From Methanomethylovorans hollandica DSM 15978 (GTDB lineage Archaea; Halobacteriota; Methanosarcinia; Methanosarcinales; Methanosarcinaceae): 64,000 bases of DNA. A program made the translations under genes and the position numbers. This document shows, one piece after another, positions 24,181 to 44,048 of this stretch; within the stretch, counting starts at the first letter, position 1; each line of letters opens with the position of its first letter. The notes under the pieces are model-generated. The model did no database searches. It saw only the letters and a list, made by a program, of their open reading frames with translations, and had not been told where the DNA came from. The stretch is taken from positions 992,001 to 1,056,000 of the forward strand of contig NC_019977.1 of NCBI RefSeq assembly GCF_000328665.1. Reading direction: 5' to 3'.

Positions 24181-25641
24181 TCAGGCTTTGTTTTTGGCTA
24201 CATGCACTTCGTGCTGAGAGTATAACCACAGTGGAATGTACAGACTCAGCACAATGAAACCTACAATTGTAGAGGTCCAGCCGATCTCAAGGCTGTTGAG
24301 ATAGACAATACCAATAAGACACAGAGGCAGGTTGAAAAGACCAAAGAGCAGTGCAACGTTCTTCCAGCCGGATGGAGCCTTGAAAGGCCTGTCCAGAGCA
24401 GCAAGTCGTGGGTTTGACTTAGCCTTAAAGTATGCAAACAGGCTGATACCGTTGGCACAGACATATCCGATAGCAGATGCCGCCAGAATGGCAGTAGGTG
24501 TTCCAAAAGATATGAGACCCAGGTTGAACAGAGCTATCACGACCATAGCAACTATAGGAGTACCATTAGCATTGATCTTACCAAAAACACGTGGCAGGTT
24601 GCCTTCAGTTGCCATGGAGTGCATAGCCCTTGCAGACCCCAGGAAAGCTGTCTGGATGATCAGAACCATTGCTGCCACAAGCATGATAATGGCTATGTAT
24701 GTACCAACAGTGCCCAATGCGGCCTGAGCCAGCGGCAACATGGGAGAAACAGGTTGTGCAAGCACTCCTTCCACACCCAGCGTCCCTGTAACCGCTGTCT
24801 GGACAAGAATATAGGTGAACAGACAGACTGCACCACAACTGAACAAAGCCTTAGGAACATCAGAACCTGGTTTCTTATATTCAGGACCATATATGGCCGC
24901 TGTTTCCCACGCGCATGCACTCCACTGTGCCATTGCGAAAATACCCAGCAGGATCAGTATATGATGTAAATCCCAGGCCCAGTCCGCTGGGAACCATGAG
25001 CCAGTAATGTTGGACAGTACAAAATCACCGGTTGCAAAGGGAGATAATGTGATTATTGCCAGTGGTGCAAGGGACAGGAAAGCAAGTATATAACCCATAG
25101 TTGCACCACTTGAAAGCCCTCTGGAATTAATTAAAAGCAGAGTTGAATATATCACAACACCTGCAGCAAGAGACAAACTGTATGCTGAATACCCGGAAAG
25201 TGCAGGGATCAGACCCTGAAGATAACTTCCCACAAGGATTGCAAAAATAGCGAGCACAGGGTTCCATGCGAACCAGTAGCTCCATGCACTGAAGCCTCCT
25301 ATGAGATTACCTTTGTCGTATTTTGATTTGCCATCGCCTTTAAATACATTCTGGGCAAATCCGGGAAGTCCGGAAGCATTAGGGAAGGTTGTGGCAAGTT
25401 CTCCGTAGGCAAGATTCTGCATAAAACCCTGGAACACGGAAAGACCCCACACAATAATTGCAAATGAGTATAGATAACTTGCAAAATAACCTATAGATGG
25501 TAATATAAGGAGAGGTACACCAATAGCAATAGCAAGACCCTGTTTCCAGTCAATGGTTCGTTCCAGGCTGCCGCCTTCACACACGACCTTGGAACATTGA
25601 GCTGCTTGTTGCCAGTCAACTCCTTCTTCTTTAGAAGCCAT
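24181..25641 (-). CDS. mtbP: dimethylamine permease (APC-superfamily transporter)
   Basis: 486 residues from ATG 25641, preceded by GGAGTGATAATT; a GTG at 25650 is in frame but less likely. About twelve predicted membrane spans, APC-superfamily architecture with LPSIGYFASY in span 1 and WSACAWETAAIYGPEYKKP in span 6-7 region. It closes the mtbC-mtbB-mtbP gene order known from methylotrophic methanogens, where MtbP is the presumed dimethylamine importer. The substrate is inferred from operon context, not from transport residues. Separated from mtbB by a spacer with a strong GC hairpin. Confidence 0.88.
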   Translation of the reverse strand: MASKEEGVDWQQAAQCSKVVCEGGSLERTIDWKQGLAIAIGVPLLILPSIGYFASYLYSFAIIVWGLSVFQGFMQNLAYGELATTFPNASGLPGFAQNVFKGDGKSKYDKGNLIGGFSAWSYWFAWNPVLAIFAILVGSYLQGLIPALSGYSAYSLSLAAGVVIYSTLLLINSRGLSSGATMGYILAFLSLAPLAIITLSPFATGDFVLSNITGSWFPADWAWDLHHILILLGIFAMAQWSACAWETAAIYGPEYKKPGSDVPKALFSCGAVCLFTYILVQTAVTGTLGVEGVLAQPVSPMLPLAQAALGTVGTYIAIIMLVAAMVLIIQTAFLGSARAMHSMATEGNLPRVFGKINANGTPIVAMVVIALFNLGLISFGTPTAILAASAIGYVCANGISLFAYFKAKSNPRLAALDRPFKAPSGWKNVALLFGLFNLPLCLIGIVYLNSLEIGWTSTIVGFIVLSLYIPLWLYSQHEVHVAKNKA

Positions 25642-25705
25642 AATTATCACTCCTTCATTATTATAACTACTCTACTTAGCTAATTCTATTGAATCTCTAT
25701 GAGAG

Positions 25706-25751
25706 AAGTCGGGCCGTTCCCCTGCACCGCAAGTTCCCGGCCCCGCGACTT
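25706..25751 (-). promoter_or_regulatory. GC-rich hairpin between mtbB and mtbP
   Basis: GGGCCG (25711-25716) pairs perfectly with CGGCCC (25738-25743), and AAGTC (25706-25710) with GACTT (25747-25751) after a 3-base bulge; loop 21 bases. It is the most GC-rich stretch of an otherwise AT-rich 118-base spacer. No T-tract follows on the minus strand, so it may act as RNA-processing or 3'-end-protecting element that sets mtbBC above mtbP rather than a terminator. Confidence 0.55.
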
Positions 25752-25759
25752 AAACTAAG

Positions 25760-27160
25760 TTATCTCAGCTTACCTCTGAACTTCTCACAGCAGTTGATCT
25801 TGATATCAAGCAGCTTTTCGATGTTCATCTTTGCAGCAATTCCCTTGGGGGCACCTGCAACGGATGTTATGACACCGATACCGAGCTCTTCCCTGAGATC
25901 TCTCATGACATACTCGTCAGAAAGATCCATTGTGGAAACTCCCAGTTTCTTAGCCACATAGTCCTTTGCATCGTTAAGCCTCATGTTCTTGGAGAATTCC
26001 ATCCTTGCCACAAGGTCACCAGCTGCCCTGATACCGCTCATACCGGAGGTCATTATGTGAGTGATCGGCATACCCATCGGGTCGCCGACCCCTATCTATA
26101 TACCATCCACGCCAGCAATTTCCACCATGGCCTTGCTGGCCCTGGAAACTGCATCAATGGTCGGGGTCTCAAGCATTGGGATACCACCCACACCCATACC
26201 CATGTTAACATGACATGGTATTGGTGATACCTTCACAGCCTCTTTTACAAAAGTGACTGCCCTGGCGAGGTTCCAGGCTGAGGATTTGCTGGTGTTTGTG
26301 TTCACCACAGGTCCGAATACATTGGCACCTGCCTTTGCTGCCAGAGGAGCCTGCTGGTGTGGCCACAGACCTGCGAGTGTGGTGTTATCATACTGCAGCT
26401 CACCGTGCATACCCAGTACAAGTTCGCCTGCCATACCCACTTCAATATACATGTCAGGATACTGTTTTCTCAAGGCTTCCACTGCCCTCAGGGTTGCGAA
26501 CATGTCACCATCGCCGGCTGCACCGGTAGTATCAAAGTTAGCACCATCTGCACCCGCGAACATCATCTTCTGCATGATCCAGACTATGTCTCTGGTCAGA
26601 TGATCAGCAGCGTGCTCCATAGATGCCTGGGCCTCAGTGATCTTGAATGCCTTCATCAGGTCACCAGGGTTCTCGAAAGGACCATCAGGAGTGTAGTACA
26701 GGCCCATGTTAGGCATAGCACCGTAGAACAGAGGTACTATCATGTTCTGCTGGCATACTTCCATTGCCTGCTGTTCCTGTGAGATGACAGGCTTCACTGG
26801 CTTATAGCTGTAGTCTATGTGACCAAGTTCCATGGTGTCTGCGCCCATGGCCCTCTCGTGTATCATACACCCTGCAAGCCTGCTTGTGGGGATACCCACA
26901 CCGCTGTTACCCTGATCACCATCAAGCCTGATGGTGCCTATGTCATGGGTTACTGGTACTTCTTTACCTGGCTCTACACCGACCATTCTGGCAGGCATCA
27001 TCAGGATCTCGGCCAGCTTGTCCAGCTCATTGCCGGTCAGTGCTGGAATACTTCCCAGGTCTGCAGCATCTGCAGTACCTGCTTCCAGATCGGCTCGGAT
27101 CTGTTCCTTCGTAAGGAAGATCCTCTTACCGTCTCCCATCCTCAAAGCATATTCTGTCAT
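25760..27160 (-). CDS. mtbB: dimethylamine methyltransferase with in-frame UAG (pyrrolysine)
   Basis: The frame runs 27160-26099, meets TAG at 26098-26096 and continues without a break to TAA at 25760, giving 466 residues with pyrrolysine at position 355. This equals the usual MtbB length. Sequence around the amber codon is VDGI-(Pyl)[10 protein letters not shown], as in known MtbB. The enzyme moves one methyl group from dimethylamine to the Co(I) corrinoid of MtbC; Pyl activates the amine as an imine adduct in a TIM-barrel active site. ATG start behind AGGTGATATAA, 11 bases after mtbC. The tRNA-Pyl/PylS/PylBCD genes must lie elsewhere in this genome. Automated callers would split it in two. 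Confidence 0.96.
26096..26098 (-). other. amber codon decoded as pyrrolysine in mtbB
   Basis: TAG in frame between GGT ATA and ATA GGG. Conserved MtbB sequence lies on both sides in the same frame and the total length is the family norm, so termination here is very unlikely. No obvious strong stem-loop directly follows it. Confidence 0.95.
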
Positions 27161-27171
27161 TTATATCACCT

Positions 27172-27816
27172 TTAAAGCAGAAGCTCTTTTGCCCTTGTAA
27201 CGGCTTCGCTTGCATTTTCTGCATAGCAGTCAGCGCCTATCTTATCGGCCCATGTCTGGGTTGCCGGTGCACCGCCTACCATGACCTTGATCTTGTCCCT
27301 CATGCCCTGTTCCTTGAGCATCTCGATGACATCCTTCTGACCTGCCAGCGTGGTGGTCATCAGAGCGGAAAGACCTATCATCTGGGCGTTGGTTTCCTTG
27401 GCCTTGTCAATAAAGTTCTGCAAAGGTACGTCCCTGCCGATGTCATGTACTTCAAAACCTGCAGATTGCAGCATGGTGGACACAATGGACTTGCCAATGT
27501 CATGCACGTCACCCTCAACGGTACCGTTGACGATAACGCCCAGTTTCTTGGAAGCTTCTCCCTTAGGCATGTCGGCTTCCAGGAGATTGACGCCTTCCTG
27601 CATAGCACCTGCAGCCATCATAACGTGGGGTAAGAACAGTTTACCTCTCTCGAACATGACACCCACTTCGTTCATACCTGCTGCAAGACCCTTTTCTATG
27701 ATCTCAGCAGGTGCAATACCCTGGCCTTTTGCCTTGCTTACAGCAGCGACCACAACATCCTTTTTACAGGAAATTATAGCATCTGCTAATTCCTTGAACA
27801 TTTCTTCTTTGCTCAT
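27172..27816 (-). CDS. mtbC: dimethylamine-specific corrinoid protein
   Basis: 214 residues. N-terminal four-helix cap (about 1-88, with MFERGKLFLPHVMMAA) and C-terminal Rossmann-like cobalamin domain carrying the base-off/His-on signature DVHDIG (about 102-107; H104 is the lower cobalt ligand), then GLSALMTTT and VGGAPATQTWADKIGAD. MtbC accepts the methyl group from dimethylamine via MtbB and passes it to coenzyme M via MtbA (not in this window). First gene of mtbC-mtbB-mtbP; strong ribosome site AGAGGAGGTTT. Closely related MtmC/MttC proteins exist; the mtbB neighbour decides the name. Confidence 0.95.
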   Translation of the reverse strand: MSKEEMFKELADAIISCKKDVVVAAVSKAKGQGIAPAEIIEKGLAAGMNEVGVMFERGKLFLPHVMMAAGAMQEGVNLLEADMPKGEASKKLGVIVNGTVEGDVHDIGKSIVSTMLQSAGFEVHDIGRDVPLQNFIDKAKETNAQMIGLSALMTTTLAGQKDVIEMLKEQGMRDKIKVMVGGAPATQTWADKIGADCYAENASEAVTRAKELLL

Positions 27817-28157
27817 CTTAAACCTCCTCTTTTAACTTAACCCAGCTTATTTGAAAGTTGGTCAGCATGGTTAACAAGCTAGAATTTATGTATGCTAAGA
27901 GGCGCTATATATCCTAAATTCAAGTCAATATATCTTTAATGATATAATATTTAACTTATAGCATAATATCATATTAATAAGTAATTACTATGCTGTTGTT
28001 ATAATATTACAATACCATTGCAACCTTCGCTGTAGTTTATTATAAGAATTAAACAAAGATACTTACTAAGGCCTTTGTACTGTATTTACAATAATGTTGT
28101 GATATTGCATTACTTTATTTCATATTTCAAGTTGGACAGCAAAAGGTGTTACACTCC
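27817..28157. promoter_or_regulatory. divergent promoter region between mtbC and the sensor kinase
   Basis: 341 AT-rich bases. A minus-strand TATA candidate (GATATATAGC) lies at about 27905-27914, giving mtbC a leader of some 65 bases; a plus-strand candidate (TTTATTATAAG) lies at about 28036-28046. The 13-base motif AAGTTGG(T/A)CAGCA occurs at 27855-27867 and 28129-28141, close to each start codon, and could be a shared regulator or RNA site. Start points are predicted, not measured. Confidence 0.5.
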
Positions 28158-30200
28158 ATGAGATGGAAAAATGTTTCTCTAACGGTAAAACTAATCTTTT
28201 ATATGGTTATGGGCGTACTGCTAGTGCTTGCCAGCACAACTGCGATGATAATTTCCACGGTAACCACTCAGGAGAAGGCTCTTGCATATCAGCAGGCTAT
28301 TGAAATGGCTAGAAGTTATGCCAACGAGTTCAACGGGGATATGGAAGCTAACCAGGCTATTGGAAAAACAATAGCTACTTCCATGAGTAATTATGAGTCT
28401 TCCGATAGGGATGAAGTGAACAATATGCTTTATGCTATATTGGTCGCTCACCCCACATTGATGGGCACATATGTGGCATATGAGCCCAATGCTTTTGATG
28501 GGAACGATGAACTGTATGTAAATGTGTCAGGACATGATGCAACCGGTCGGTTCATACCGTACTGGAACAAGATGAATGGTACAATTAAGATTGATCCACT
28601 TCTATATTACGATACCTCTGATTATTACCAGTTGCCAAAGAAGTTGCAGGCAGATGTGCTTACTGAGCCTTATTACTATGAGGGCGCGTTCATAGTAAGC
28701 TATGCTTCTCCCATAATGAAAAACGACACCTTCATAGGTATTGGTGGCGTTGATGTTTCATTATACTATCTTGATGATATCCTGAGCAATGTCAAAGCCT
28801 TTGATACTGGCTATGCTTTCATGACCAGTAATTCAGGCATGCTTTTATCCTACCCATATAACAAGCAATGGATAGGCAATAAGACATTGTATGATTTTGA
28901 GATAGATAATTTCTCACATGCTGCAGATGATATTAGAATGGGTAAAAGCGGACATGTAGAAACCATAGACCCGAACACAGGCAAAAGAGTGGTAATGTTC
29001 TATGAGCCCATAAGGACAGGTAATTTCTCTTTTGTACTGGTGGTCCCAAAGGACGAGATCTTCGCTGGAGTAATGGCCCTGAGAACAAAACTGTTGTTCA
29101 TTTCCATGGCTGCTGTCATTTTCATGGCTGCAATAGCATATCTTATAGCCCTTTCAGTGACAAGGCCCATCAAACAGATAGTGGCAGGCTTCAAAATGAT
29201 CTCTAAAGATGCCGTTAAAGGCAAGCTTGACACAAGGGCAAGCAGTGATGTGGAAATAGATTTCAGGGAAATACCACGTGGTCTCAACGAGATCCTGGAT
29301 GCTGTCATAACGCCTGTAAGAGATACTATAAGAGTGACAAATGCCCTTGCTAAGGGAGAGCTTGAAACGAGGTCTAAACTGGATGTCCAGGGAGAATTCA
29401 AACAGCTTGCGGATACGCTGGATGATTTTGCCGAATCCCTGGATACAATGATCAAAGATTCAAATGCCGTACTCACTGCAGTGCAGAATAATGATTTCTC
29501 ACATGAGGTACAGGTACACGGAGAAGGAGATTTCAGGATCCTAACGGAAGGCATTGACAGGACACGTGAAACCCTGGACCATATGATGGCTGAACGTAAG
29601 CAGATAGAGCAGATCCGTAAAAAAGAGATACACCACCGTATAAAGAACAACCTGCAAGTCATCTCAAGCCTGCTTGATCTGGAATCCGATAAATTTCAGG
29701 ACCCTTTGGTTATAGAAGCTTTCAGGAACAGCCAAAGCCGGGTAATATCAATGGCTTTGGTACACGAAGAACTATACAGGTCTGAAGACATGGAGAGCAT
29801 TGATTTTTCTGATTATATCCTCAAGCTTGTAAATGACCTTTCACGCTCCTACAGAACGGATAATCGGAAGGTCAATATCAGAACGCGCATAGAGAATGTT
29901 TTTCTGGATATGGATGTAGCCATACCTCTGGGTATGATAGTGAACGAGTTGGTATCCAATTCTTTCAAACATGCTTTCGGACCAGAGGATACAGGAGATA
30001 TTCTCATTGATCTGAGCTGTGACAGGAAAAAGTTCACATTGGTGATATGTGACAACGGTAAGGGTTTCCCCGAAGATGTTAATTTCAGAGAGACCGAATC
30101 ATTGGGATTACAGCTTGTGACCACACTAGTGGATCAGATAGACGGAACCATTGAACTTGAAAGGAATGATGGTACGAGGTTTACAATAAATTTCAAATGA
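28158..30200 (+). CDS. Cache-HAMP sensor histidine kinase (HisKA_2 type)
   Basis: 680 residues from ATG 28158, which follows AAAGGTG; a GTG at 28146 would add four residues. Membrane span 1 (about 8-30), an extracytoplasmic double-Cache sensor (about 40-300, with GTYVAYEPNAFDG and IGGVDVSLYYLDD), span 2 (about 310-330), HAMP and a HAMP-like linker (331-485), then HisKA_2 with phospho-acceptor in HHRIKNNLQVISSLLDLE and HATPase_c with NELVSNSFKHAF and CDNGKGFP. dCache domains bind small ligands such as amines and acids. Divergent from mtbC and followed by a receiver and an Msr-type regulator, so a role in sensing methylated substrates is inferred. Confidence 0.92.
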   Translation: MRWKNVSLTVKLIFYMVMGVLLVLASTTAMIISTVTTQEKALAYQQAIEMARSYANEFNGDMEANQAIGKTIATSMSNYESSDRDEVNNMLYAILVAHPTLMGTYVAYEPNAFDGNDELYVNVSGHDATGRFIPYWNKMNGTIKIDPLLYYDTSDYYQLPKKLQADVLTEPYYYEGAFIVSYASPIMKNDTFIGIGGVDVSLYYLDDILSNVKAFDTGYAFMTSNSGMLLSYPYNKQWIGNKTLYDFEIDNFSHAADDIRMGKSGHVETIDPNTGKRVVMFYEPIRTGNFSFVLVVPKDEIFAGVMALRTKLLFISMAAVIFMAAIAYLIALSVTRPIKQIVAGFKMISKDAVKGKLDTRASSDVEIDFREIPRGLNEILDAVITPVRDTIRVTNALAKGELETRSKLDVQGEFKQLADTLDDFAESLDTMIKDSNAVLTAVQNNDFSHEVQVHGEGDFRILTEGIDRTRETLDHMMAERKQIEQIRKKEIHHRIKNNLQVISSLLDLESDKFQDPLVIEAFRNSQSRVISMALVHEELYRSEDMESIDFSDYILKLVNDLSRSYRTDNRKVNIRTRIENVFLDMDVAIPLGMIVNELVSNSFKHAFGPEDTGDILIDLSCDRKKFTLVICDNGKGFPEDVNFRETESLGLQLVTTLVDQIDGTIELERNDGTRFTINFK

Positions 30201-30218
30201 ATGAAATAGGTGAATTCA

Positions 30219-30641
30219 GTGGACGAAATAAAGATACTGGTAGTAGAGGACGAGAATATAATCGCTCTGAATATAAAGAAAAAACTTAAAAGTTTTGGTT
30301 ATGAAATTCCTGCCATTGCCTCTACAGGAGAAGAAGCTGTCAAAATGGCTGAGATCATTTTACCGGACCTAATCCTCATGGATATAATGCTGAAAGGGGA
30401 TATGGATGGAGTGGAAGCTGCAAAAGAAATAAGGAAACATTTTGACATCCCTATCATCTATCTGACAGCTTACTCAGATGATAAGGTATTGGAAAGAGCA
30501 AAGATAACTGAACCCTATGCTTACATTGTGAAACCCTTCAAGGCTAATGACCTGCGTTCCAACATCGAGATGACTCTTTATAGGCATAGTGTAGAGAAGG
30601 AGGACAAAAGGAAAAAAGCTTCTTTAGAAGGAAGGATATAG
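30219..30641 (+). CDS. stand-alone response regulator receiver protein
   Basis: 140 residues from GTG 30219, chosen because GGTGA (30209-30213) lies 5 bases ahead and the receiver fold starts directly ([13 protein letters not shown]). CheY-like: acidic pocket EDE, phospho-acceptor Asp in [14 protein letters not shown], Thr/Ser switch LTAYSD and Lys in VKPFKA. No output domain, only a charged tail (EKEDKRKK). Starts 18 bases after the kinase gene, so it is the obvious phosphoryl acceptor. Ends with TAG. Confidence 0.92.
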
Positions 30642-30721
30642 ACAAATGTTTCCTTTTGTTCCATCCAACATTTATACTGAGAATAGTACATAAGTATTCT
30701 AATAGAAATAGTGAGGGATAA

Positions 30722-31507
30722 ATGAAAACTTCCCTGATAGACACCATGCTCAACTCAGAAAAGAGAAAGAATTTGCTGCTTCTGCTTATGGAAGGAGAGA
30801 AAGGTCGGGACGAGATCAAAACATCTCTTAATGTGACTTCTACGGCTATCATCCCACAGATAAAGAAACTAAAAGAATGCGGTCTTGTTATTCAGGAGGA
30901 AGACCGGTATCGTCTTTCAAACATGGGTGAAGTACTGGTCGAGAACATGCTACCTTACCTCAATATTGTGGAGGTGTTCGAGGAGAACACGGAATACTGG
31001 CTGACCCATGACCTTACAGGTATACCATGGCCGTTATTAAAAAGACTAGGCGAACTTGGAAATTATCTTATCATTGAACCTGATCTTAATTATCTTTTTG
31101 AGTTCCCCAGGGAATTCAAGGAAAACATTTTAAAGTCGAATTATGTAAAGGTTTTTACTGCTTACTTTCATCCGGAATATCCTGCGATTTACTCAAAACT
31201 TGCCGAGCAGGATGTAAATGTTTCCCTTGTGCTTACACCTTCTGTTCTGGCAAGATTCCAGAAGGATTATGCTGAACAGATGGAAAAACTGGAGATTGCA
31301 GATAACACAGAGATTCTGATCACCAATGACATATGTGGGCTGGCTACCATTGTAACTACTGACAGGTTCCTATTTTTGTGTTTCTTCAATAAAAGTGGCC
31401 ACTATGACCACCGTATCATTATGAGCTTCGATCCGAAGGCCCTGCAATGGAGCCAGGAACTGTTCCTGCAGTATAGGGAAAACGCTGAAAGAGTGAAAAG
31501 GGATTAA
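30722..31507 (+). CDS. Msr-type transcriptional regulator (ArsR-like winged helix + DUF1724)
   Basis: 261 residues. N-terminal winged helix (about 8-75: KRKNLLLLLMEGEKGRDEI, then QIKKLKECGLV and wing EEDRYRLSNMGEV) followed by a DUF1724 domain (about 130-250; DICGLATIVTTDRFLFLCFF). This pairing is that of the Methanosarcina Msr regulators, which control methanol and methylsulfide methyltransferase genes. It has a GTGAGGGA ribosome site and sits 80 bases after the receiver gene, close to the mtb operon, so mtb or related genes are the likely targets (inference). Confidence 0.85.
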   Translation: MKTSLIDTMLNSEKRKNLLLLLMEGEKGRDEIKTSLNVTSTAIIPQIKKLKECGLVIQEEDRYRLSNMGEVLVENMLPYLNIVEVFEENTEYWLTHDLTGIPWPLLKRLGELGNYLIIEPDLNYLFEFPREFKENILKSNYVKVFTAYFHPEYPAIYSKLAEQDVNVSLVLTPSVLARFQKDYAEQMEKLEIADNTEILITNDICGLATIVTTDRFLFLCFFNKSGHYDHRIIMSFDPKALQWSQELFLQYRENAERVKRD

Positions 31508-40253: not shown

Positions 40254-41365
40254 TCTATCCCTCTGTTCTTTTGGTTCATGCTCCTTAATACATTCTTAAA
40301 TATCAGCACTATCAATGTAATGGCTATCCCGGCAATTGCAATGCCGGTTATGTTCAATTTGTCTTCAGCAGGTGCTACTGTTACATTTACTTTCATATTG
40401 CTCGAATATGCGATCTCATCATCTGTATCGATATATTTGACCTCACTGTCCAATCCATATGTTTTTATCACGGCTGCACGCTGCGCAGAGATATCAAAAG
40501 ATGCTGTTTTACTGAGACCCGGGGCAATGGTGCCAAGGGGTTGCATGGATCTGTCACAAGAGAAAGGTTTTATGGCAACTATCCTGGCAACAGCATCTGT
40601 AGCGGGAAGCTCCCCGGTATTCGTGTAGGTGACATTAATAGCACTGGTACCACCTGCTATGATCTGCCCGGAAACCTCAGTGACAGCTAACATGGGTTGT
40701 GGTCCTATGACAATAGGGATCGTAAGGGTCTTGTTGGCAGTCTGATAAAAGGCTGCATGATCCTTGTCAGGTAGACCCACGGCAGTTGTAATGCCCGCAG
40801 TCATTCGTATGTCTTTTTTGTACTCATATATTAGAGGTAGATCCAGCATATACACACCAGCAGGTGCGTTTTTTGAAACTTTCAGCGTAAATACGAGGGG
40901 GTCATCGGGCAATTGTCCCGGAAATACCTCTTCAAGGGTCTGACTGCTCGTAGTCGGGTCAACGTCTATATATTCGGAATTGCTCACCAGTGTAGCTTTC
41001 ACCCCATAGGCAACAGTGCGAAGAGATTCATATTCGAGTTCCTTGATAGCAAGAGCCTGTTTAGTCTCAGAAGTACCTACACCCTGTGCACTCTTTGCAC
41101 CGTATAGTACTCCTCTGTTGGAAATTACAATCCTTATATCTCTTGTTTCCCCTCTTTCCAGTTCCGTATCCCCAAGCACCGAAGCATAAAGATCCGGTTC
41201 TCCGTATCCGGTGTAAAAATTGATCGTGTGCTCGGATGCAGCCGGCAGGAATTCCTTTGCAGAAGCGGGGTGCATATCTATGATTGGGAACATTCCAAGC
41301 ACAAACATAACTGCCAGAATGAGAGTCAAATGTGTGAAAATCTTTATTCTTAATGTGCTTTTCAT
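40250..41365 (-). CDS. secreted, membrane-anchored beta-domain protein, RND partner (copy 1)
   Basis: 371 residues: N-terminal signal/anchor (about 8-36), extracytoplasmic domain with VSKNAPAGVYMLDLPLIYEY and the COG1361-like INVTYTNTGELPATDAVARI, followed by a TM span (about 340-362) and a short basic end. Aligns along its whole length with the next gene, so the pair arose by duplication. Translationally coupled on both sides (ATGA overlaps). Because archaea of this type have only one membrane plus an S-layer, it cannot be a classic outer-membrane-linked adaptor. Confidence 0.8.
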   Translation of the reverse strand: MKSTLRIKIFTHLTLILAVMFVLGMFPIIDMHPASAKEFLPAASEHTINFYTGYGEPDLYASVLGDTELERGETRDIRIVISNRGVLYGAKSAQGVGTSETKQALAIKELEYESLRTVAYGVKATLVSNSEYIDVDPTTSSQTLEEVFPGQLPDDPLVFTLKVSKNAPAGVYMLDLPLIYEYKKDIRMTAGITTAVGLPDKDHAAFYQTANKTLTIPIVIGPQPMLAVTEVSGQIIAGGTSAINVTYTNTGELPATDAVARIVAIKPFSCDRSMQPLGTIAPGLSKTASFDISAQRAAVIKTYGLDSEVKYIDTDDEIAYSSNMKVNVTVAPAEDKLNITGIAIAGIAITLIVLIFKNVLRSMNQKNRGIE

Positions 41366-43698
41366 GTGGAGCTAACCTCCATTACCCTGGAATGGTTATC
41401 ATTCATGCTTTTCATTTTTTTCTTCAATATCCTCTCTTCTCTGTGCTTGTCCAGCAGGACCAGAACAGGCGGGAACACAACGAATGTAGCGAACAGCGCT
41501 AACGTTACATCGATGACAGTAATGTAACCAAAATTGCTGGTCATACTAAAAGGGGAAGCTATCAATGCTGCAAAACCAAAGACTGTGGTAAGCCCTGAAC
41601 TTACGATGGCTTTGCCCATCTTTACACTTGCTTCGTGCATTGCTTCTTCGGGAGAGGCACCTTTGTCCTTCTCTTCAAAATATCTCTCCATCATAAGGAT
41701 AGCATATTCCGAACCTACTCCAAGGATAAGTGCACCAAGGGTTGCTGTCATGGGAGTGTACTCAAGACCAGTGTAGTACATGATGCCACCGGACCAACCT
41801 ACAACTATTAACATCGTAATGACCGGAGTGAAAGCTTTCAGATAATCTCTGTAGATGGCCAGCAGTCCTATGAATACAAAAACTATTCCCAGCATTGTCA
41901 TCAGCATGCGTCCTGAGGTGAGTGCACCTATCACCTCAAAGAATACCACAGAGCCTCCGGTGATAGTAACAGTGTCCCCCGGAGGTGGTGCTAACCATTT
42001 AAGGTCCTCTTTGACGGTATTTGAAAGATCTGCTATGCCTTCAAGTCCCAAATCATTCATGGCATTGCCAATGTTCAGATTGAGCACCATTATATTTCCA
42101 TCATGGATGTACTGTTGTTTCTGGATATCTGGCATCTGTGCATAGATATGTTTCACTTCTTCGGCAGTGCCCGGGATCTCGCCTCCGTTCATTTCCTTTA
42201 CGATGGACACTATACTGCTGGATCCATAGATGTGGGATCTGCCTTCAACTTCATGCTTTGAAAAATCGTCCACCCATTGCAGAAGAGCCGGATCTGCATT
42301 GTTGTCAGTTTTGATTATCAGATTGAGTTCTTCACTGCCACCCAGGATACTACCCAAAAGTTTCAGATCCAGTAAAGCTGGCATATCCTGAGGAACGAAT
42401 GTCTGCACATCTGTTTGCAGGGGCACCATGGTATCTACATACATGCCTCCCAGGCAGGTCAAACTTGCAACTATCAGAATGAGCCAGGGATACTTCAATG
42501 TGAAAGCGGTGATCCTTCCAAGTATACGATCAAGCATATCAGGCTGTGTGGTGCTGACACTATGATAGTTCTTTCTGGAGTTATTAGCATTCTTCAATTT
42601 TTTCTTGGTGTCTGCACGGTGCAGGTAATAGATCACTGTCACTCCCACAAAAAGAGATGACATAAAACACATCACTATACCGATGAGCAAAAGTTTTCCA
42701 AAATCCTGTATCATTGGCACCGGAGATGTAAAAAGGGACACGAATCCCAGTGCTGTTATTATCAAAGCTATCAGCACTGCAGGACCAATATGTTTGATGG
42801 TTTCCACCACGGCCTCTGCAGCATCTTCACCTTTACCAAGTTCTTCCTCTATGCGGTTATGGAACTGGATGGCATAATCTATCCCAAGGCCGATTAGCAC
42901 AGGGAAAGCTGCCATGGACACCATCGTCATGGGAATCTCTAAAAATCCCATTGCACCAAAGGTGAATATAATGCCTAGCAGCACAATAGGTAACGGAAGT
43001 AATCGCCATCTGACATGTCCAAATACCATGTACAGCACTACCATCATCAGTATGGCTGATATGCCAAGCAGAGGACCCATACTTGAATTCATCTCATCGT
43101 TGAGCGCAATGTTGAAAGCAGGATCCCCGGTGATTATTATACTATAATCCGGGGGAAACTCAGCAAATGCAACAGATGCTTCAGTTTCCTTTAAAATTTC
43201 TTGCTGCGTCTGGTCTGTTGCACTACCTTCTATTACCACTGACATGAATGCATGAGTATTATCCGGCATGAGGGCTGACGGCATATATGAAGCTACGATG
43301 TCCTTTATTATCGTTTCATCATCCGGTATTTCGGAATTTCCGGTCATTTTAGAGTTGGCTTCTTTTATTACTGTGGAAGGAGAAATTACTTCAATAACAC
43401 CCGGTATGCCCTGAGCTGACATGTGGGATCTGTCAAGGGCTTTCAGTAGATCCGGATTTGTGATGTCTTTACCCTCGACCATTACAACTATGGACTGGGT
43501 ACTGAAGAGCTTCAGGTACAAATGGTCGAAGTCCTGATATAGCTTTGAGGTCTTTTCCACGAAAGTATCGGTTCCTGAACTCATTTCAATGAGCTGGGCA
43601 CCCTGCAGGGAGAGAACAACTAAAAGCAGTGCAATAAGTAAAATAGCCACAGAGTTGTCCTCAATAATAATCCCAAGTTTTTCAAATATGTCTTTTAT
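41362..43698 (-). CDS. RND superfamily exporter, HAE3/MMPL type
   Basis: About 778 residues. Twelve predicted spans in the RND plan: span 1, large extracytoplasmic loop, spans 2-6, then a second copy. First half has GLGIDYAIQFHNRIEEELG, second half GVGSEYAILMMERYFEE, the acidic span-4 motifs of the HAE3/MMPL group. Proton-driven export of hydrophobic or amphiphilic compounds (lipids, hopanoids in relatives) is the family role. The first GTG (43650) falls inside conserved sequence; upstream residues KDIFEKLGIIIEDNS match N-termini of relatives, so the start is probably ATA 43698 (or ATT 43701) behind GAGGTG. First gene of the operon with two paralogous partners. Confidence 0.87.
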   Translation of the reverse strand: MKDIFEKLGIIIEDNSVAILLIALLLVVLSLQGAQLIEMSSGTDTFVEKTSKLYQDFDHLYLKLFSTQSIVVMVEGKDITNPDLLKALDRSHMSAQGIPGVIEVISPSTVIKEANSKMTGNSEIPDDETIIKDIVASYMPSALMPDNTHAFMSVVIEGSATDQTQQEILKETEASVAFAEFPPDYSIIITGDPAFNIALNDEMNSSMGPLLGISAILMMVVLYMVFGHVRWRLLPLPIVLLGIIFTFGAMGFLEIPMTMVSMAAFPVLIGLGIDYAIQFHNRIEEELGKGEDAAEAVVETIKHIGPAVLIALIITALGFVSLFTSPVPMIQDFGKLLLIGIVMCFMSSLFVGVTVIYYLHRADTKKKLKNANNSRKNYHSVSTTQPDMLDRILGRITAFTLKYPWLILIVASLTCLGGMYVDTMVPLQTDVQTFVPQDMPALLDLKLLGSILGGSEELNLIIKTDNNADPALLQWVDDFSKHEVEGRSHIYGSSSIVSIVKEMNGGEIPGTAEEVKHIYAQMPDIQKQQYIHDGNIMVLNLNIGNAMNDLGLEGIADLSNTVKEDLKWLAPPPGDTVTITGGSVVFFEVIGALTSGRMLMTMLGIVFVFIGLLAIYRDYLKAFTPVITMLIVVGWSGGIMYYTGLEYTPMTATLGALILGVGSEYAILMMERYFEEKDKGASPEEAMHEASVKMGKAIVSSGLTTVFGFAALIASPFSMTSNFGYITVIDVTLALFATFVVFPPVLVLLDKHREERILKKKMKSMNDNHSRVMEVSST

Positions 43699-44048
43699 AA
43701 TGACACCTCTAAACTGTTGCAGCTTTCTGTCCGAATATGGGCGTATATATGTGACTGATATTTATAGTTTTTTAAAAATTACAATTTTGTTGTTATTTTA
43801 ATAACAACCAATTATCATGACAAATTGTTACGCATAATTCTCTGTACATCTGCATCTTTTTGATCTTCAAATTATATTTTACAGTATTCAGCTACACTGC
43901 GCAGTTAGTCGAGGTACTCGTTGGCCTTGCCAGAAATATGCAAAGCTCATTAGATATAAGAGGACTCTACTATCTACTAATTCTAATTATAATGAGGTGC
44001 TTGTCTTTCCGGATCTTTTTTAGACGAGCTATTAAACCACTTTTACTT
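43699..44048. other. 350-base AT-rich spacer upstream of the RND operon
   Basis: Contains the minus-strand promoter of the RND operon (TATA box ACTATAAATA, about 43757-43767) and the palindrome at 43789-43808. The plus-strand frame 43860-44087 is Leu/Ile-rich but has no ribosome site and I do not regard it as a gene. Nothing else seen. Confidence 0.45.
43789..43808. promoter_or_regulatory. 20-bp palindrome upstream of the RND operon promoter
   Basis: GTTGTTATT (43789-43797), TT, AATAACAAC (43800-43808): perfect arms of 9 bases. It is 20-odd bases upstream of the RND operon TATA box, the usual position of an activator site. The TrmB-type regulator at the operon's end is a candidate binder (inference). 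Confidence 0.5.

Follow-up and report, generated by a model that had tools for sequence, protein, structure and literature searches.

The genes facing away from a dimethylamine methyltransferase operon of Methanomethylovorans hollandica DSM 15978 encode a sensor kinase, a receiver and an Msr-type regulator that probably form a dedicated methylamine-sensing circuit directed at palindromes of methylamine operons; we put the probability of this reading at roughly 0.6. The genes lie in a 64,000-nt stretch of the genome (in the following called the window; host assembly 2,428,904 + 285,109 bp). In the proposed circuit, an external double-Cache domain would bind dimethylamine, probably also tri- and monomethylamine, and the HisKA_2 kinase would phosphorylate the adjacent receiver. 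The receiver would act on Msr, a TrmB-like DNA-binding protein expected to read 19-bp palindromes that precede the kinase operon and, on the divergent side, mtbCB-permease. In Methanolobus, mtmCB is preceded by such palindromes too. Msr would activate its own operon and mtbCB-permease (and mtmCB). For the window, we infer the ligand, the binding of Msr to the palindrome, the signaling from receiver to Msr and the activation. To our knowledge, there are few archaeal two-component systems for which ligand, operator and regulon are all known. The set in the window supplies candidates for all three at once and bears on the input signals of Msr proteins, the roles of archaeal receiver-only proteins and methylamine-derived methane.

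On the minus strand, the window contains mtbC for the dimethylamine corrinoid protein (27172–27816; NF041607, 382 bits, above the cut-off), mtbB for the dimethylamine methyltransferase (25760–27160; TIGR02368, 932 bits) with an in-frame TAG (pyrrolysine) at 26096–26098, and a gene for an APC permease (24181–25650), a probable dimethylamine permease according to Pfam and linkage. Divergent from these genes, on the plus strand, follow the kinase (28158–30200), the receiver (30210–30641) and the Msr gene (30722–31507). An earlier note on this DNA had described a Cache kinase, a bare receiver and an ArsR-like/DUF1724 regulator divergent from mtbC, and Pfam confirmed this gene set; DUF1724 is the former name of FilR1_middle (PF08350).

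The membrane sensor kinase combines a dCache_1 domain (residues 44–297), HAMP/HAMP_2, HisKA_2 (494–569) and HATPase_c. The Cache domain lies between hydrophobic segments at residues 10–28 and 316–334. As expected of HisKA_2-type sensor histidine kinases, which have an H-box and a HATPase_c domain with N and G boxes, the protein contains an H-box (EIHHR) together with N, G1 and G2 motifs. The external ligand-binding domain and the HisKA_2 type attributed to this kinase in the earlier note thus found support. The reading frame opens with GTG at 28146, and the start conserved in alignments is the ATG at 28158, preceded by AGGTG, a ribosome-binding-like motif. Translation probably starts at this ATG, yielding 680 amino acids as in Methanolobus.

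Among solved structures, the Cache domain matched best to PDB 3LIB from Methanosarcina mazei (2e-118, 62% identity over 281 residues), which places it close to a proven member of the dCache_1AM family. Candidate pocket residues, mapped to PctD numbering via the PacA alignment and spacing only, are the same as in 3LIB (R135, Y139/W140, Y160, Y176, S185 and D203), with M replaced by I at 183. For the 3LIB protein (R1; WP_011034866), isothermal titration calorimetry gave Kd values of 0.53 µM for dimethylamine, 10 µM for trimethylamine, 19.6 µM for ethylamine and 35 µM for monomethylamine (PMC10104139). Because of the close homology to this measured dimethylamine receptor, the case for an amine ligand is strong, and the window circuit very likely senses an amine. 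The earlier suggestion that the kinase may itself sense the amine thereby gains much in likelihood and loses its novelty, since the M. mazei sensor was published in 2023. Our phylogenetic tree places the window kinase among Methanolobus kinases whose genes are linked to dimethylamine and to monomethylamine genes; the kinases of the second, monomethylamine-linked type of unit fall into a clade of their own. Solo Cache proteins were considered as chemoreceptors and rejected, as they are HisKA kinases.

R1 shares with the window kinase the sensor family, the HisKA_2 type by homology and the clustering with mtbCB-permease; its clustering with a dimethylamine methyltransferase gene was noted in 2023, and regulation of this gene was proposed (PMC10104139). 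The passages of that paper considered here do not discuss receiver or Msr partners or an operator. R1 differs in its length of 861 amino acids and its position downstream of the permease, an 843-aa relative has an added PAS domain, and the Methanosarcina loci scanned lack the palindrome described below. One Methanosarcina genome (G082) encodes proteins identical to both M. mazei crystal structures. There, mtbCB-permease is followed immediately by the gene of the 3LIB-identical kinase. The other crystallised kinase (3LI8) belongs to an Msr-kinase-receiver unit on the divergent side of mtbC, ~6 kb further on.

To follow this arrangement in relatives, we surveyed 65 mtbB loci. A kinase of this family lies within 9 kb of 21 of the 30 permease-linked mtbB genes versus none of the 33 mttB-linked ones (Fisher p=5e-10; once three loci that had been chosen by their kinase are removed, 18 of 27, p=5e-9), although these p-values overstate independence because the loci are related. 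Receiver and Msr genes accompany the kinase in most units, in the order kinase-receiver-Msr in Methanomethylovorans and Methanolobus and Msr-kinase-receiver in Methanosarcina and neighbours, Methanococcoides and Methanohalophilus. The synteny of kinase-receiver-Msr with mtb genes, which the earlier note had proposed to survey, is therefore conserved across several genera of Methanosarcinaceae; a lack of such linkage, named there as counting against the proposal, is not what we found, because the linkage recurs in relatives. Kinases and Msr genes are plentiful in these genomes, so that the three genes might have come together by chance and be unconnected to amine use. Conserved synteny and linkage, the ligand homology and the shared palindrome leave this explanation with almost no probability. 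At a Methanohalobium locus (L045, 9177–13482), a kinase of this family and a receiver precede a second kinase, of PAS-HisKA_2 type, and a second receiver, with Msr and palindrome absent.

The receiver contains Response_reg as its single Pfam domain and a complete phospho-site (D58, K108 and the acidic pair) that does not vary among 19 aligned relatives, and thus has the features of a receiver-only response regulator. GTG 30219 is a possible alternative to the start at 30210. The Msr gene encodes an ArsR-like winged helix-turn-helix (wHTH; HTH_5, 22.3 with a cut-off of 22, and HVO_A0261_N) followed by PF08350 (122.8 bits, cut-off 27), the composition of Msr/FilR1_middle regulators. The protein ends after FilR1_middle, and the receiver is a separate gene. 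Comparison of the Msr sequence with solved structures gave no match. Its AlphaFold2 model (mean pLDDT 92.8) resembles TrmBL2 and TrmB according to Foldseek, and its C-terminal part resembles PLD-like proteins; the likeness to TrmBL2/TrmB is at the domain level because global TM-scores were low. Msr would thus share the wHTH and PLD-like domain with these proteins in its predicted fold, whereas sequence identity is ~15% and the sugar-binding domain of TrmB is missing. This predicted TrmBL2-like layout without an extra ligand-binding domain mildly favours an input via a partner protein.

Signaling from the receiver to Msr has a precedent, because FilR1 of Methanosaeta harundinacea fuses an Msr-like protein to a receiver. 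FilR1 (HTH-FilR1_middle fused to a receiver) activates target promoters, and better binding was reported when it is phosphorylated (PMC3991700). We consider it somewhat more probable than not that the window receiver signals to Msr. A search with a concatenated query detected no Msr-receiver fusion; a 410-aa frame in G297 was considered as a candidate and rejected as merely an N-terminal extension. Alternatively, the kinase and receiver might sense the amine but bypass Msr and address another target or serve as a hub, while Msr answers an internal signal and controls the palindromes. Such parallel inputs would fit preliminary data from M. acetivorans, in which MsrC/MsrX were excluded from the phosphorelay of another kinase, MA4377 (PMC11784639), the proposal that receiver-only proteins act as hubs, the ten full-length FilR1_middle (Msr) proteins of the host genome, and the Methanohalobium kinase-receiver units without adjacent Msr. 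We nevertheless judge this unlikely, as the three genes are adjacent across several genera in two different orders, FilR1 is a natural fusion of the two partners, and the Msr model suggests a TrmBL2-like protein with no obvious additional small-molecule domain. The earlier interpretation, leading from the amine to the receiver and by a putative further step to Msr, is supported in part, namely by the conserved linkage, the dimethylamine-receptor homologue and the shared palindrome.

From aligned divergent regions, we delineated a 19-bp consensus, ATTACAAY-NNN-RTTGTAAT, located ~10–30 bp before the kinase TATA-like element and often present in tandem ~22 bp apart. In the window, copy 1 (ATTACTATGCTGTTGTTAT, 27984–28002), the putative Msr operator, and copy 2 (ATTACAATACCATTGCAAC, 28006–28024), 22 bp from copy 1, each have 2 mismatches, and copy 2 is conserved in Methanomethylovorans. 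The kinase gene has a conserved TATA-like element, TTTATTATAAG (28036–28046, plus strand), 11 bp after copy 2, and a weak third copy lies downstream of it (28085–28103). Toward mtbC, alignments revealed a conserved BRE/TATA-like element, TTTAGGATATATAGCG (27900–27925, minus strand), of a kind also found in Methanolobus mtbC promoters. The window contains four matches with ≤2 mismatches versus 0.21 expected, three of them in the 329-bp mtbC-kinase interval, and the whole host genome contains 12 such sites versus 3 for the control. The remaining window site (43778–43796, one mismatch) lies 128 bp upstream of an unrelated-looking MMPL/RND transporter gene (41362–43650, minus strand). A scan for sigma-70 promoters was set aside as uninformative, the host being an archaeon.

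Upstream of the kinase, the palindrome matches at 14–16 of 16 positions in nearly all Methanomethylovorans and Methanolobus units and at 13 in one; one unit on an incomplete contig could not be scored. A scan of Methanolobus and Methanomethylovorans loci totalling 543 kb detected 24 strong sites, located upstream of the kinase/mtmC, permease-linked mtbC or the permease, and none in the mtt-mtb-mtm clusters scanned. All seven permease-linked Methanolobus mtbC genes examined have the palindrome upstream, and in Methanolobus mtbC promoters it lies ~60–80 bp before a conserved TTTATGATATATA element, to which the element of the window mtbC is alike in kind. For genome-wide searches, C or T was allowed at one position per arm. 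This relaxed pattern yielded 0–5 sites per genome among 27 Methanolobus genomes, and its reversed control was found once. The strict palindrome occurs 20 times in these 27 genomes, by coordinate reading always in methylamine clusters: 19 sites precede a kinase, mtbC or permease (including two at contig ends, where mtbC was inferred) and one lies beside a hydantoinase-like gene of a methylamine cluster. We used the strict form alone as evidence of specificity because looser variants match other promoters; ATTATAAY-NNN-RTTATAAT, for instance, precedes an ATP-grasp/MfnD-like operon in several Methanolobus (L212, L215, L224, L225).

Judged by these sequence patterns, the palindromes define a candidate regulon of the kinase operon, mtbCB, the amine permease and mtmCB, and they are a direct target for EMSA and reporter assays. 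The effect of Msr is most likely activation and not repression, a preference that stems from the position of the palindromes upstream of TATA boxes. The palindrome was not found at the units of Methanosarcina, Methanococcoides and Methanohalophilus (one weak site in 363 kb), and we therefore confine the operator claim to Methanomethylovorans and Methanolobus. It is likewise absent from two Methanohalobium units without adjacent Msr. The host genome carries mtbCB twice, at 25699–27839 of the window and at L032 7555–9697, with 99.4% identity over 2,143 bp and different upstream DNA. The second copy belongs to a cluster of mtt, mtb, mtm and mtbA genes that also encodes a PAS-GAF sensor and in which our scan found no palindrome. 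Control of mtbCB is therefore not solely via the palindrome, because this near-identical copy sits in a cluster without it.

As the sole DNA-binding protein of the unit, with its co-occurrence with the palindrome and a distinctive recognition helix, Msr is the likely reader, and we expect with good confidence that it acts at the palindrome. The recognition helix reads VTSTA[IL]IPQIK in units with the palindrome versus mostly VTSKAMMPQIK in units without it. A distant regulator might instead bind the palindrome, with the local Msr serving other promoters: one Methanolobus genome (G056) has kept kinase, receiver and palindrome and lacks the Msr orthologue, and about ten Msr paralogues exist in the host genome. 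However, within Methanolobus the palindrome occurs in 21 of 23 genomes with the unit versus 0 of 4 without, and in 20 of 22 with the Msr orthologue versus 1 of 5 without (p=0.004, uncorrected for phylogeny). Together with the lack of another DNA-binding protein in the unit and with the different element borne by paralogous monomethylamine units that have other Msr proteins, this renders a distant reader quite improbable. Such paralogous units, with two Msr genes divergent from mtmCB-permease, exist in the host genome and in Methanolobus. The host unit (L031, 5599–10510) is arranged Msr-Msr-kinase (956 aa, PAS)-receiver and is convergent with pylSBCD. The Methanolobus mtmC-Msr intergenic regions (L237–L247) have another repeat in common, TTGTGAATTGTAAG, which lies next to the TATA box and may be a second operator.

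The closest archaeal two-component system to the window circuit is FilI/FilR1/FilR2, which likewise comprises a kinase, a receiver-only protein and a FilR1_middle regulator and controls methanogenesis genes. It differs in the CHASE4 domain and other kinase type of FilI and in its acetate gene targets, and FilR1 is a DNA-binding protein with its own receiver, unlike the window Msr. MsrA-H of Methanosarcina acetivorans are HTH and DUF1724 regulators of methyltransferase operons as well, but were described for methanol and methylsulfide genes, with no receiver or amine sensor known to be assigned to them. The haem kinases MsmS/RdmS are also sensors associated with methyltransferases; they are cytosolic PAS/GAF proteins without an H-box, whereas the window kinase is a membrane Cache sensor with an H-box. 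In the open-access literature searched, we found no combination of sensor, receiver and Msr with a defined operator and regulon. The earlier note knew of no described example of this exact set, and within this literature its statement stands for the combination with receiver and Msr; the M. mazei sensor, its ligand and its methyltransferase clustering were already published in 2023. What is new is the target side, i.e., the palindrome and the candidate regulon, next to a published sensor family and ligand class.

More tentatively, and with somewhat less than even odds, the unit may represent a split response regulator, in which the phosphorylated stand-alone receiver would dock on the TrmB-like Msr and switch its DNA binding. 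This could be a general way in which archaeal amine sensors are coupled to methyltransferase operons, with separate dimethylamine and monomethylamine sensor-Msr-operator sets per cell. Hydantoinase/oxoprolinase-like genes are recurrent in the methylamine clusters (L031 15150–19074, L042, L049, L214 and L221).
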